A stretch of 36,213 nt of DNA from an uncultured beta proteobacterium (GTDB lineage Bacteria > Pseudomonadota > Gammaproteobacteria > Burkholderiales > SG8-41): contig CAIVHG010000013.1 of the NCBI GenBank assembly GCA_903905655.1, positions 1 to 36,213 on the forward strand, given 5' to 3'. The notes under the pieces are model-generated. The model searched no databases. It was not told where the DNA came from and saw nothing but the letters and a program-made list of their open reading frames with translations. Shown in pieces: positions 6,986 through 12,420 of this stretch. Numbering within the stretch: the first letter of the stretch is position 1; each line of letters opens with the position of its first letter. The translations under genes were made by a program, and so were the position numbers.

Positions 6986-8254
6986 ATGGCTAAAGTCGGG
7001 CGTGAATTCCAGCTACTGGTAAAGCCGATCGCCGCAGTCTGCAACATCGACTGCCATTATTGCTATTACCTGGAAAAGAAGAATCTCTACCCGGGCAGCC
7101 GCCAGTGGCGCATGCCCGACGATCTGCTGGAAAATTACATCATCCAGCACATCGAGGCCGCCTCCACCGAGGTCATCCTGTTCTCGTGGCACGGCGGAGA
7201 GCCGACCGTGCTGGGCGTCGACTATTTCCGCAAAGTGGTCGAGCTGCAGCGCAAGCACCGCCCGTCCGGGCGCCAGATACTGAACGGCCTGCAGACCAAT
7301 GGCACGCTGCTCGACGATGAATGGTTCGCGTTCTTCGCCGCGGAAAAATTCTTCGTCGGGCTGAGCATGGACGGGCCGCAGGAGTTGCACGACGCCAATC
7401 GCGTCACGCGCTCGGGCAAGCCCACGCACGAGCGCGTCATGCAATCGTACCGCGGCCTCAAGGCGCACGGCGTCTCGTGCGACCTGCTGTGCGTCGTCAG
7501 CAGCGCAAACGTGCGTCACCCCGAGGCGGTCTACCGCTTCTTCAAGAGCATCGGCGCCGATTACGTGCAGTTCCTGCCGATCGTCAGGCGCGCGCCCGGC
7601 GGCGCGCTCACCCCCGAGAGCGTGCCGGCGCGCGAATACGGGACCTTCCTGAAAACGGTATTCGACGACTGGGTGCGCAACGACATCGGCCGCATCGGCG
7701 TGCAAAATTTCGACGAGGCGCTGCGCACCTGCGCAGGCATGGAGCACGCGCTTTGCATATTCAGAAAAACCTGCGGCGACGTCGCCGCGATCGAGCACAA
7801 CGGGGACTTCTACAACTGCGATCACTTCGTGGATCGCGCGCACAAACTGGGGAATATCCGCGAGCAGTCGATCACCGAGCTGCTGGAGCACCCCGCGCAG
7901 ATCGAGTTCGGGCGCCGCAAGGCCGACCTGCCGCGCTATTGCCGCGAGTGCAGCGTGCGCGACTTCTGCAACGGCGGCTGCCCCAAGGACCGTTTCATCG
8001 AAACCCCGGACGGCGAAGCAGGCCTCAACTATCTGTGCGCGGGGTTCAAGTCGTTCTTCACCTATAGCCGGCCCTACCTGCGGCGGCTCGCCGCCTGCCA
8101 GAAGTCCGGGAGTTCGATCGAAGAGTTCATGCGCTCGCTGCGCACGGAGGACAACGCTCCCACGCAACCGGCCGGACGCAACGACCCGTGCCACTGCGGT
8201 AGCGGGAAGAAATTCAAGAAATGCTGCCTCGCCAAACGCCGCGCCCTGGCGTGA
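6986..8254 (+). CDS. radical SAM/SPASM enzyme, anaerobic sulfatase-maturase type, with SEC-C tail
   Basis: A 422-residue enzyme of the COG0641 group. The radical SAM cluster motif is C19-x3-C23-x2-C26 (VCNIDCHYCYYLEK), followed by the SAM-binding GGEP at 70-73. The C-terminal SPASM/twitch region carries C257, C263, C278 (in FYNCDHFVD, whose Asp279 matches the proposed catalytic Asp of AnSME enzymes), C319, C322, C328, C332 and C351. The last 25 residues are a SEC-C zinc motif, GRNDPCHCGSGKKFKKCCL. Family members convert a Ser or Cys of sulfatases into formylglycine, but relatives modify other proteins or peptides. No sulfatase gene is in the window, so the substrate is unknown. It lies 92 bases before a second radical SAM gene on the same strand. 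Confidence 0.9.
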   Translation: MAKVGREFQLLVKPIAAVCNIDCHYCYYLEKKNLYPGSRQWRMPDDLLENYIIQHIEAASTEVILFSWHGGEPTVLGVDYFRKVVELQRKHRPSGRQILNGLQTNGTLLDDEWFAFFAAEKFFVGLSMDGPQELHDANRVTRSGKPTHERVMQSYRGLKAHGVSCDLLCVVSSANVRHPEAVYRFFKSIGADYVQFLPIVRRAPGGALTPESVPAREYGTFLKTVFDDWVRNDIGRIGVQNFDEALRTCAGMEHALCIFRKTCGDVAAIEHNGDFYNCDHFVDRAHKLGNIREQSITELLEHPAQIEFGRRKADLPRYCRECSVRDFCNGGCPKDRFIETPDGEAGLNYLCAGFKSFFTYSRPYLRRLAACQKSGSSIEEFMRSLRTEDNAPTQPAGRNDPCHCGSGKKFKKCCLAKRRALA

Positions 8255-8337: not shown

Positions 8338-8385
8338 GCCCTGCCTATGGATGTACTAGCTGCCCTGCCTATGGATGTACTAGCT
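8338..8385 (+). repeat. tandem repeat, 2 x 24 bp, across the start of the second radical SAM gene
   Basis: Bases 8338-8361 and 8362-8385 are identical 24-base units. Each contains an ATG, so the gene has two in-frame candidate starts (8347 and 8371), and the duplicated peptide is MDVLAALP / MDVLAAPP. The unit length is a multiple of three, so the frame is kept. No good ribosome site is present ahead of either ATG. Confidence 0.95.
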
Positions 8386-9525
8386 GCCCCGCCCGCGGCG
8401 AGTGCCGAAAGCGCTGCGCCAATCGTCGGAGAGCGCGTCGAACTGCAATTGCTCACGACCCTGCGCTGCAATCTGCGCTGCACCTATTGCTCGCTCGGCG
8501 TGGGTGAGGTCGTCGGCTCGCAGAGGAAGCCCACCTACACGCTGGACGCGCTCGACGCATTCATCGAGAAGCAGCTCGCCGGCCACGAGATCTACGTGAC
8601 CTTCTACGGCGGCGAGCCTACGCTCAACCTCGCGTTCATGACTGCGGTCATGGACCGCTATCCGCGCTTTCGCTTCCAGCTGCAGACCAACGGCACGCTG
8701 CTGCACAAGCTGCCTGTTGCCTTGCTGGCGCGGTTGTCCAACATCCTGGTCTCGATCGACGGCGGTCAGCAGGTGACCGACAGCTACCGAGGACGCGGCT
8801 GTTACCACAAAGTGATGAAGAACCTGGACCTGGTGCGCGGCAAAGTGGGCGGCACGCTCACCGCGCGCGTGACCTGGCACAACGAGGACACCAGCTTCGA
8901 AGAACTGGACGCGCTGACGCGCAGCTTCGATTACCTCTACTTCCAGTTCGTGGCGCAGGAAGGCGCCTACTCTGCCGCGGCCGTGGCCAAGAAGCGCGCG
9001 GTGCTGTCGCAGCTGATCGACAAGTTCTTCGCGAGCAGCACGCTCTATCCGGTGATTCCGATCATGGGCATCGTGCGCAACAAGGTGCTGCCGTCGCGGG
9101 CACGCGAGCTCTACGCTGGGCTCACCCAGTGCCGCGTCTCGACCCACCTGCTGAACGTCATGCCCGACGGCAAGATCTATCCCTGCCCGGACCTCATGTA
9201 CGAGCCCGGGATGCTGCAGGGCGACGTGACCCAGAATTGGCTCAAGCGCAGCGCGCTGCAGCCGCACCCCGACATGCCGTGCGCAGACTGCAGCGCCTTC
9301 CCGTATTGCCGGGGCAACTGCATGAAGAACCTCTATATCGCATATGTGAAGGCCGACGAGAATTACCGCCGCACGGTCGTGGAGCCGATCTGCGATTTGC
9401 TGCGCTTCCTGGGCGAGGAAGTCGACCGCCACGATCCCCACGCCTGGTATGGCCGCGCCGCCCTGCCCCTGCGCAACCGTGTTGCCAACTGCGAGGCCTA
9501 CGAATACGTGGAGATCATGCCCTGA
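8347..9525 (+). CDS. radical SAM/SPASM protein, putative peptide- or protein-modifying enzyme
   Basis: A 392-residue enzyme (384 if the second ATG is used). The motif C41-x3-C45-x2-C48 in TLRCNLRCTYCSLG binds the SAM-activating [4Fe-4S] cluster, and YGGEPTLN at 87-94 is the SAM site. A SPASM-like C-terminal part has C262, C280 (VMPDGKIYPCPD), C312, C315, C321, C325 and C349, enough for auxiliary clusters. It resembles the group of putative peptide-modifying enzymes called AF1577-like, but I am not certain of the subfamily. The first 24 residues are low-complexity Ala/Pro-rich and partly created by a 24-base duplication. It probably shares a transcript with the preceding SEC-C radical SAM gene. 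No precursor peptide gene was found in the gaps on either side. Confidence 0.85.
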   Translation: MDVLAALPMDVLAAPPAASAESAAPIVGERVELQLLTTLRCNLRCTYCSLGVGEVVGSQRKPTYTLDALDAFIEKQLAGHEIYVTFYGGEPTLNLAFMTAVMDRYPRFRFQLQTNGTLLHKLPVALLARLSNILVSIDGGQQVTDSYRGRGCYHKVMKNLDLVRGKVGGTLTARVTWHNEDTSFEELDALTRSFDYLYFQFVAQEGAYSAAAVAKKRAVLSQLIDKFFASSTLYPVIPIMGIVRNKVLPSRARELYAGLTQCRVSTHLLNVMPDGKIYPCPDLMYEPGMLQGDVTQNWLKRSALQPHPDMPCADCSAFPYCRGNCMKNLYIAYVKADENYRRTVVEPICDLLRFLGEEVDRHDPHAWYGRAALPLRNRVANCEAYEYVEIMP

Positions 9526-9598: not shown

Positions 9599-9802
9599 TT
9601 GATCGCTCTCACCGTCAACGGCGAACCGCGCCGCTTCGAACAATCGCTTACCTGCCAGCAACTGCTCGAGCGCCTGGAACTCGGCGGCAAGCGGGTGGCG
9701 CTCGAATGCAACGGCGAAATCGTGCCGCGCAGCCGCCACGCGGCGCACCTGCTGGCCGACGGAGACCGCCTCGAGATCGTGGTCGCCGTCGGCGGCGGCT
9801 GA
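9599..9802 (+). CDS. thiS: ThiS, sulfur carrier protein for thiazole synthesis
   Basis: A 67-residue ubiquitin-like sulfur carrier. It begins (M)IALTVNGEPRRF, contains the CNGEIVPRS segment typical of ThiS, and ends VAVGGG; the C-terminal Gly-Gly is adenylated and converted to thiocarboxylate, the sulfur donor for the thiamine thiazole ring. The only start that gives the normal N-terminus is TTG at 9599, and no clear ribosome site precedes it, so expression may be weak or coupled. It is followed 33 bases later by thiG, its direct partner. No TPP riboswitch was recognised upstream. Confidence 0.92.
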   Translation: MIALTVNGEPRRFEQSLTCQQLLERLELGGKRVALECNGEIVPRSRHAAHLLADGDRLEIVVAVGGG

Positions 9803-9835: not shown

Positions 9836-10651
9836 ATGAAACCTGAAGACCAGCTGCATCAACTGACCATCGCGGGCAAACCGTACAAGTCGCGGCTGCT
9901 GGTGGGCACCGGAAAGTACCGCGACTTCGCCGAGACGCGTGCCGCGATCGACGCCAGCGGCGCGCAGATCGTGACCGTCGCCATCCGCCGCACCAACATT
10001 GGCCAGGATCCCAAGCAGCCCAGCCTGCTCGAAGTGCTGCCGCCATCGCAGTTCACCATCCTGCCCAACACCGCCGGCTGCTACAACGCTGAGGATGCGG
10101 TGCGCACGCTGCAGCTCGCGCGCGAGCTGCTCGACGGGCACGACCTGGTCAAGCTCGAAGTGCTGGGCGACCAGAAGACGCTGTTCCCGAACATGGCCGA
10201 AACGCTGAAGGCTGCGAAAACGCTGGTGCAGGACGGATTCAAGGTCATGGTCTATTGCAGCGACGATCCGATTGCCGCCAAGCAGCTCGAAGAGATCGGC
10301 TGCGTGGCCGTGATGCCGCTCGCCTCGCTGATCGGCTCCGGCATGGGCATCCTCAATCCGTGGAACCTGCAGATCATCATCGACAACGCCAAGGTGCCGG
10401 TGATCGTCGATGCCGGCGTCGGAACCGCATCGGACGCCGCGATCGCGATGGAGCTCGGGTGCGACGGCGTGCTGATGAATACCGCCATCGCGACTGCCGG
10501 GAATCCGGTGTTGATGGCCTCCGCGATGAGAAAAGCCATCGAAGCTGGGCGCGAGGCATTCTGCGCCGGCCGCATGCCCAAGAAGCCGTACGCGGCCAGC
10601 CCGAGTTCACCCACCGAGGGTGTGTTTACCGCACGCGCTGCCAGCGCTTAA
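9836..10651 (+). CDS. thiG: ThiG, thiazole synthase
   Basis: A 271-residue cytosolic TIM-barrel enzyme that joins deoxyxylulose 5-phosphate, dehydroglycine and the ThiS thiocarboxylate to make the thiazole phosphate of thiamine. Family landmarks are [10 protein letters not shown] near residue 20, [17 protein letters not shown] at about 74-90, K106 in [10 protein letters not shown] (the Schiff-base lysine), and [31 protein letters not shown] near the end, which forms the phosphate-binding loops. The length is normal. There is a TTTATAAAG stretch just upstream but no strong ribosome site. It forms an operon with thiS. The downstream neighbour is not a thiamine gene but an ETHE1-like protein. 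Confidence 0.96.
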
Positions 10652-10699: not shown

Positions 10700-11677
10700 A
10701 TGATCTTCCGCCAGCTCTACGACCCGGTTTCCCGCGACTACACGTATCTGATCGGCGACGAAGCATCGCGGCTCGCGGTGCTGGTCGATCCCATGCTCTC
10801 GCAGATCTACCGCGACCTCGGCACGCTCAAAGAGCTCGGCCTGAGGCTCGCCTATGTGCTGGAAACCCGCGTGCATGCTTCCCAGACGACCGGCGCTCCG
10901 AAGATGCGCGTGCTGACCGGATGCGGAGGCATCGCGCCCGATGCAGTGCAAAACGGATTCGCCGGCCGCTCTCTGCTCGACGGTGAAGTGCTGCGCCTCG
11001 GCGACATCAGCGTCACCGCCATCGCCGTCGCCGGCTACATGCAAAGCCACGTGGCTTACCGCATCAACGCGGACCGCGTGCTGGCGGGCGGTGCGCTGTG
11101 CGAGCAGCACGGCAGCGGGCTGCGGCATGACGATGCGCGCCGCCTGCGCGATGCGCTGATCCGGCGTCTCGCGACGCTGCCCGACGACACGCTGCTCTAT
11201 CCCGGCCACGACTACGGCGGTCTCACGGCGACGACCCTGGGCGAGGAACGGCACGCGCGTCCGCTGGCCGACCGCAGCGAGGATCCATTCAGCGCGTTCA
11301 TGGCGCGCCTCACGCAGCCACTGCCCGTAGAACTCATGCAGCCCGTGACTACGCACGCCGCAATGCAAAAGGACGTCATCGTTGCACGGGTTGCAAGCAA
11401 ACCGCGCAGGCAGCTGCACTTGCCCAAACGCATCGTCCGCACTACGCTACCCGGCCCGCAGCGTCAGGCGCAGATCGCCGCAGGCACGCTGGTGCTGATC
11501 GGGACTGCGCTCTCGGTGCTCTACTCGCCGTGGTTCCTGTTGCTGCCCGCGTTGATTGGCGGCCAACTGATCGGCGCCGGCGCGACCGGCAACTCGCTGC
11601 TGACGCAGTGGCTCGCGAAACTGCCCTTCAATCGGCCGCACGCCGGCAGCACGGCGCGGCCGCGCCCGAACGACTGA
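10700..11677 (+). CDS. degenerate persulfide dioxygenase (ETHE1)-like protein fused to a YgaP-type membrane domain
   Basis: A 325-residue two-domain protein. Residues 1-230 follow the bacterial ETHE1-like metallo-beta-lactamase pattern ([21 protein letters not shown] at the start, [15 protein letters not shown] at 162-174). The metal motif that should read HxHxDH is RVHASQ (R57, H59, S61, Q62). The PGHT loop is AGYM (Tyr113 for His), and GDAL is GGAL (Gly131 for Asp). Thus the positions of all three iron ligands of ETHE1 are changed, while H170 remains. Residues 250-312 are a DUF2892/YgaP-like double transmembrane hairpin ([18 protein letters not shown], then [12 protein letters not shown], ending LAKLPFNR). 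Dioxygenase activity is unlikely. The gene is intact, so a non-catalytic sulfane-sulfur binding or membrane role is possible (inference). Confidence 0.85.
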
Positions 11678-11745: not shown

Positions 11746-12420
11746 ATGACGAACCCCGATTATTCAATACGCAGCTTCGTGCTGCGGCAGGGACGGGTTT
11801 CGAACGCGCAGCGCCGCGCGCACGAAACGCTGTTGCCCCGCTACGGCATCCCATACGCCGCGCAGGCGCTCGATCTCGACCAGATCTTTGGACGCAGCGC
11901 GCCCAAAGTGCTCGAAATCGGCTTCGGCATGGGCGAGACGACCGCGTCCACCGCCGCAGCGCATCCCGAATGCGATTACCTCGGCATCGAAGTGCACACG
12001 CCCGGCGTGGGCAGCCTGCTCAAACAGATCGATGAACTGGCGCTCACCAACCTGCGCATCATTCAGCACGATGCCGTCGAAGTGCTGAAGCACATGATCG
12101 CGCCCGCAGCGCTCGATGGCGTGCACGTGTTCTTTCCCGATCCGTGGCCCAAGAAGCGGCATCACAAGCGCCGGCTGCTGCAGCCCGAATTCATCGCGCT
12201 CCTGTGCACGCGCATGAAGCCGGGCGCCTATCTGCACGTGGCCACCGACTGGCAGGAATACGCCGAGCAGATACTGGAGGTGTGCACGCGCGAACCCGCG
12301 CTCGTCAACACCGCTCCTGGCTATGCGCCGCGCCCCGCGCACCGCCCTGAAACAAAGTTTGAGCAGCGCGGTCTCAGGCTCGGTCACGGAGTGTGGGACG
12401 TCGTATTCCAGCGCGTTTGA
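11746..12420 (+). CDS. trmB: TrmB, tRNA (guanine-N7)-methyltransferase
   Basis: A 224-residue SAM-dependent methyltransferase that makes m7G46 in tRNA. Landmarks are [10 protein letters not shown] near the N-terminus, the SAM-binding [10 protein letters not shown], the acidic [15 protein letters not shown], and the family signature [17 protein letters not shown] at about 128-144. The end [10 protein letters not shown] is also usual. The ATG at 11746 is chosen because it gives the standard length; the frame is open upstream into the previous gene. No ribosome site is apparent, and a TACACT -10-like element lies seven bases ahead. It converges on hemW, with only 15 bases between the stop codons. 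Confidence 0.95.

Follow-up and report, generated by a model that had tools for sequence, protein, structure and literature searches.

Gene architecture at the thiG-trmB interval

The window, the whole 36,213-nucleotide stretch of DNA analysed here, comes from one draft assembly of one species (69.7% complete, 0.21% contamination, 113 contigs). Between thiG and trmB, it carries a 325-residue reading frame that is open from its ATG to its TGA and combines an ETHE1-derived domain with a YgaP-type membrane hairpin (Table 1). Upstream of thiS lie two adjacent genes (6986-8254 and 8347-9525) for radical-SAM-like proteins that carry CxxxCxxC motifs and are Cys-rich at the C-terminus.

The two parts of the protein were assigned by phmmer searches against the PDB. 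Residues 1-212 match the ETHE1 enzymes of Myxococcus (4ysb, E=1.5e-40) and human (4chl, E=6.6e-33). For residues 254-312, the match is to the transmembrane structure of YgaP (2mpn, E=3.2e-7), and a short linker of about 39 residues (213-251) joins the two parts. Profile libraries see less of this relationship. The sole Pfam match is YgaP-like_TM, which stays below threshold (16.9 bits versus a cut-off of 25.3, E=0.0072), and Lactamase_B has no Pfam match in the protein. NCBIfam returns glyoxalase II and the PDO-rhodanese family Blh, both far under their cut-offs (22.8 bits versus 625 for Blh, NF040641, covering part of the PDO domain only). No rhodanese domain is matched in the protein by either library, and a decayed rhodanese in the linker was considered and rejected, as the linker has no profile match and only about 39 residues. 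An earlier note on this DNA had described an ETHE1-like pseudoenzyme fused to a YgaP-type membrane domain that lacks its usual rhodanese partner, and both points are borne out by these searches and by the lost ligands described below.

The AF2 model of the soluble core is mostly confident (10-residue blocks mostly at 75-97 up to residue 130), with lower pLDDT in a remodelled loop (about 58-68) and in the membrane part (about 36-52). Its best Foldseek match in the PDB is 4ysb_A (E=7.1e-22, TMt 0.88), and all top matches are ETHE1/PDO structures. Codon use and GC3 (0.83) resemble those of the neighbouring genes except in the linker, where codon bias is near zero. No clear Shine-Dalgarno sequence precedes the gene, as is also the case for several neighbours.

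Table 1. Coordinates of the gene, its parts and its neighbours in the window
Feature	Position	Strand	Basis or remark
thiS	9599..9802	+	start TTG; matched in syntenic relatives
thiG	9836..10651	+	48 bases upstream of the fusion gene
Entire gene (325 aa), ETHE1-derived pseudoenzyme domain followed by YgaP-type membrane hairpin	10700..11677	+	ATG to TGA; phmmer; codon use
ETHE1/persulfide-dioxygenase-fold domain, residues 1-212, iron ligands lost (R57, Y113, G131)	10700..11335	+	phmmer, Foldseek, conserved columns
Former THxHADHxT motif, now T-R57-V-H59-A-S61-Q62-T-T64	10865..10891	+	alignment
Former TPGHT motif, now V110-A-G-Y113-M114	11027..11041	+	alignment
Former TGDxLLIRGxGRTDFQ loop, now A129-G-G131-A-L-C134-E-Q-H137-G-S-G-L-R-H-D144, in-frame deletion	11084..11131	+	alignment
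Kept YPGHDYGG (H170, D171, Y172), non-ligand side of pocket	11198..11221	+	alignment
Linker, residues 213-251, in place of the YgaP rhodanese domain	11336..11452	+	little codon bias and low pLDDT; probably the fusion seam
YgaP-type membrane hairpin, residues 252-315, Ser299 in place of the conserved Cys	11453..11644	+	phmmer 2mpn; nearest relatives; hydropathy
trmB	11746..12420	+	68 bases downstream of the fusion gene

Loss of the catalytic residues of both parent families

In the crystal structure of human ETHE1, the iron is held by His79, His135 and Asp154 (PMC4383860). Our alignment places R57, S61, Q62, Y113 and G131 of the window protein opposite human His79, Asp83, His84, His135 and Asp154, so that all three ligands are replaced (by R57, Y113 and G131); the earlier note had mapped these three positions correctly. 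Positions affected in human disease include Thr136, Thr152, Arg163, Thr164 and Asp165 (PMC4383860), and the counterpart of the Arg163-Thr164-Asp165 loop is remodelled here: the substrate-channel loop GCGRTDFQ, with its conserved RTDFQ, is replaced and partly deleted in frame. Compensating frameshifts in the 131-144 loop were considered and rejected, as the other two forward frames, read by eye, do not restore the motif. The remodelled loop also holds a new Cys134 and a new His137. On its non-ligand side, the pocket is intact, with Asp30, His59 and His170-Asp171-Tyr172 in place; in the conserved-column table, pocket columns 167-174, H59 and D30 are all retained.

The membrane hairpin has lost its conserved cysteine as well. 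In Escherichia coli YgaP, the second helix has Cys159 close to its end (PMC4730233), and a cysteine is found in 7/7 YgaP-like hairpins of the genus that we compared; the window protein has Ser299 instead, and its only remaining cysteines are Cys75 and Cys134. Judged by its sequence, the protein cannot be a persulfide dioxygenase by the known mechanism, nor can it be a rhodanese.

The remaining fold carries the mark of constraint

Orthologues were sought in sets of 15 (genus), 74 (family), 399 (order), 369 (class) and 398 (phylum) genomes, the last three being samples searched under strict thresholds, in which absence is not proof. In about 1,400 genomes searched whole, the same substitutions turned up in no homologue. 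Above its strict threshold, the phylum search yielded nothing further, and class matches were judged only by their alignment in the conserved-column table. A peptide-pattern scan of 84,980 species genomes likewise returned only ETHE1s with active motifs and none that shared the substitutions, the best match (46%) lying in a genome labelled Cyanobacteria. Viral contigs gave no match, and the best match among plasmids and phages reached 47%. In the matches whose translations were read, HxHADH is kept, except for one HADR variant (L049) and rows entered downstream of the motif. The nearest relative with an active motif is L038 (46%), whose contig belongs to a genome with the label Cyanobacteria (UBA11153), and similar genes (47%) occur on cyanobacterial plasmids. 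Neither another ETHE1 nor a rhodanese-YgaP protein was seen in the host draft genome, 30% of which may be missing. One of only two rhodanese-domain matches in that genome, L169 (G000:C71:29755-30042), is reported with an in-frame TGA.

In a tree of 91 ETHE1 domains, the window domain groups with L038, L141 and L151 (98/86), a clade that includes a cyanobacterial-labelled sequence and lies apart from the active ETHE1s of the host genus. The reading frame has stayed open along a terminal branch of 2.06 (median 0.11), a length that makes the exact place of the domain in the tree uncertain. The grouping speaks against descent from the genus's own ETHE1 or its ETHE1-rhodanese-YgaP proteins, subject to the same uncertainty of placement.

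We compared the losses with those expected under neutrality. Fifty-five columns are conserved at 90% or more among 90 relatives, and the window protein keeps 33 of them. The losses concentrate in three active-site segments, with 14/23 columns lost there versus 5/28 elsewhere before the seam (Fisher p=0.0016, run on a nearly identical 5/29 table; p=0.012 with three seam columns included, 8/32); these segments were picked by eye after the losses were known, though they are natural ligand loops. Neutral evolution was then simulated from five active homologues under three mutational GC settings until active-site column loss equalled that observed (15 settings of 400, giving 6,000 runs). On average, the runs accumulated 2.8-7.0 stops and lost about 16 of the 28 outside columns, whereas the window gene shows no stops and 5 outside losses; a single run of the 6,000 combined no stop with at most 5 outside losses. 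In addition, 40/45 hydrophobic-core columns are still hydrophobic, versus 66-69% expected under neutrality, and the indels stay in frame. The earlier note had named two things that together would refute it, a lack of homologues with the same substitutions and relaxed selection; in the genomes searched no such homologue came up, but the distribution of the losses excludes neutrality as the source of every one of them, even if the gene may have passed through a brief neutral phase of late. The remaining ETHE1 fold thus carries the mark of constraint.

These results bear directly on recent decay, in which function was lost recently and the frame has not yet broken, a reading that the earlier note had also offered. 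It would agree with the lack of any orthologue in the genomes searched whole, the very long terminal branch, the combined loss of active site, substrate loop and hairpin cysteine, and the want of a clear ribosome-binding site. It fits poorly with the open frame and the pattern of losses, since neutral loss would have brought about 3-7 stops and about 16/28 structural-column losses where 0 and 5 are seen, and it sits no better with the kept hydrophobic core, native codon use and GC3, and in-frame indels. There may have been a short neutral phase in recent times, preceded by long altered selection; overall, we regard recent decay as improbable, if still the best-surviving rival.

A gene in the ygaP slot and its possible role

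The thiG-trmB interval varies within the genus. The two genes are directly adjacent in five genus-mates (G004, G005, G008, G011 and G014; gaps 34-145 bases), and a rhodanese-YgaP gene lies between them in G007 and G012. G006 and G002 carry a divergent, BigR-like ArsR gene there, together with DUF2892-like, AhpD-like and rhodanese-YgaP genes; the DUF2892 and AhpD names are our own reading of the sequences, and rhodanese plus YgaP were Pfam-checked on the G012 protein. These sulfide-type islands span L126:1501-3090 and L127:1470-3051, respectively (oriented, thiG on +). A similar ArsR protein encoded at another locus of G002 (L157) scores 98.8 bits against NCBIfam BigR, with a cut-off of 155; BigR and its homologue YgaV are described as responding to sulfide (PMC5823870, PMC9774250). 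Adjacency is the plain state of thiG and trmB, and the interval between them is an insertion site.

The C-terminal part of the window protein finds its best matches among 60 relatives in the four syntenic YgaPs (of G002, G006, G007 and G012). The gene occupies the slot of the rhodanese-YgaP gene of sister species, whose YgaPs its tail resembles most. A tree built from thiG-trmB places the window species with those that have no insert (91/91), the insert-bearing species forming the sister group, and so the insert either was ancestral and then lost or arrived separately.

The explanation that we consider best, at a probability of roughly 55%, is an ETHE1 pseudoenzyme that has preserved its fold, is anchored in the membrane by a YgaP hairpin and has a non-catalytic role. 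As the tail has its nearest relatives in the four syntenic YgaPs, we envisage an ETHE1 copy taking the place of the rhodanese in a ygaP: an ETHE1 gene would have been fused to the hairpin part of the resident ygaP as the rhodanese domain was lost, and the ETHE1 part would then have diverged far faster than typical with the fold kept. ETHE1 and YgaP both dimerise, and for this reason the product, presumably held at the inner membrane, is probably a dimer. It would act neither as a dioxygenase nor as a sulfurtransferase. Its partner could be another protein or a small ligand of the sulfide/persulfide response, for which it would be a docking, regulatory or decoy subunit. The most likely function, inferred from one draft genome, is that of a membrane-anchored non-catalytic scaffold or regulator.

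The retained side of the pocket also invites a different reading, in which a neofunctionalised enzyme has built a new active site from His59, His170, Tyr172, Asp30, Cys134 and His137, with another metal or none. The full retention of columns 167-174, H59 and D30 and the appearance of Cys134 and His137 in the remodelled loop favour this idea, but the new residues are common to no relative, so that none can be called conserved, and confidence in the predicted loop is low (pLDDT about 58-68). We hold it to be a shade less probable than recent decay. More doubtful again is a role at the membrane in the service of ThiS-ThiG, as a sensor of sulfane sulfur or as a scaffold, which the earlier note had proposed from the position of the gene. 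The gene does follow thiG on the same strand after 48 bases, and ygaP takes the same spot in G007 and G012, but with thiG-trmB adjacency as the plain state and the interval an insertion site for rhodanese-YgaP genes, the thiS-thiG neighbourhood is an inherited position and not evidence of a sulfur-carrier role. A sensor of sulfane sulfur is further weakened because the rhodanese, the ETHE1 iron, the substrate loop and the hairpin cysteine, the known sulfur-reactive sites of both parents, are all gone, leaving only Cys75 and Cys134, neither of them known to be conserved. Finally, misassembly at the seam is possible, the linker being free of codon bias, but a chimera of two unrelated genes joined in the draft genome is very unlikely: the single assembly and the near-zero linker bias would allow it, whereas the loss of the iron site would be left unexplained, the flanking genes thiG and trmB show normal synteny and the tail is of the kind to be expected there.

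Several known systems resemble the preferred pseudoenzyme in part. It shares fold and sequence over residues 1-212 with ETHE1 (4chl, 4ysb), including pocket residues H59, H170, D171, Y172 and D30, but lacks the three iron ligands and the Arg163-Thr164-Asp165 loop and adds a membrane tail. The PDO-rhodanese fusion BpPRF (5ve3) likewise places an ETHE1 domain first among fused sulfide-detoxification parts; in contrast to BpPRF and to Blh of the bigR operon, the window protein has no rhodanese, an inactive iron site and a membrane hairpin instead. Similar to the E. coli membrane rhodanese YgaP (2mpn), whose relatives fill the same genomic slot in sister species, it has a membrane hairpin, but with an ETHE1 pseudo-domain for the rhodanese and Ser299 for the conserved cysteine. 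Related in layout are three-domain ETHE1-rhodanese-YgaP_TM proteins of two genus-mates, with an N-terminal ETHE1 and a C-terminal YgaP hairpin (L010:925-2169 (-) of G002, Pfam-confirmed, and L012:1501-2763 (+) of G004). These differ in having intact motifs, HxHADH included, and a rhodanese, in lying at another locus and in belonging to a different ETHE1 clade; they may be a membrane-bound version of Blh. A further ETHE1-rhodanese gene, in G009 (L155:2431-2893 (-)), is broken, with its halves in different frames and the middle missing, through either a real deletion or an assembly error.

MBL-fold pseudoenzymes are known from eukaryotic RNA processing, where CPSF100 and INTS9 are inactive, non-catalytic partners in complexes. 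Like them, the window protein keeps the MBL fold after metal-ligand loss, in their case for a non-catalytic role in a complex; unlike it, they partner eukaryotic nucleases, and no sequence or pathway link connects them to it. The Integrator core is the subject of PMC7980224. Our literature search found no paper on a pseudoenzyme derived from a persulfide dioxygenase. The parts are already known, their combination is a variant, and a single assembly underlies the case. A more ambitious proposal, which we advance tentatively and at well below even odds, is that a domain swap at the ygaP locus created a new kind of membrane protein with a dead persulfide-dioxygenase fold as its ligand- or partner-sensing head. 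This would be, as far as known, the first case of an ETHE1 pseudoenzyme dedicated to a non-catalytic role.

For annotation, the case is a warning, as the sequence could be labelled a sulfur dioxygenase, an activity impossible by the known mechanism. If the protein is made and used, it would provide a natural test of the role of the ETHE1 fold apart from catalysis, and of how a swap of the soluble domain changes the function of membrane sulfurtransferases.
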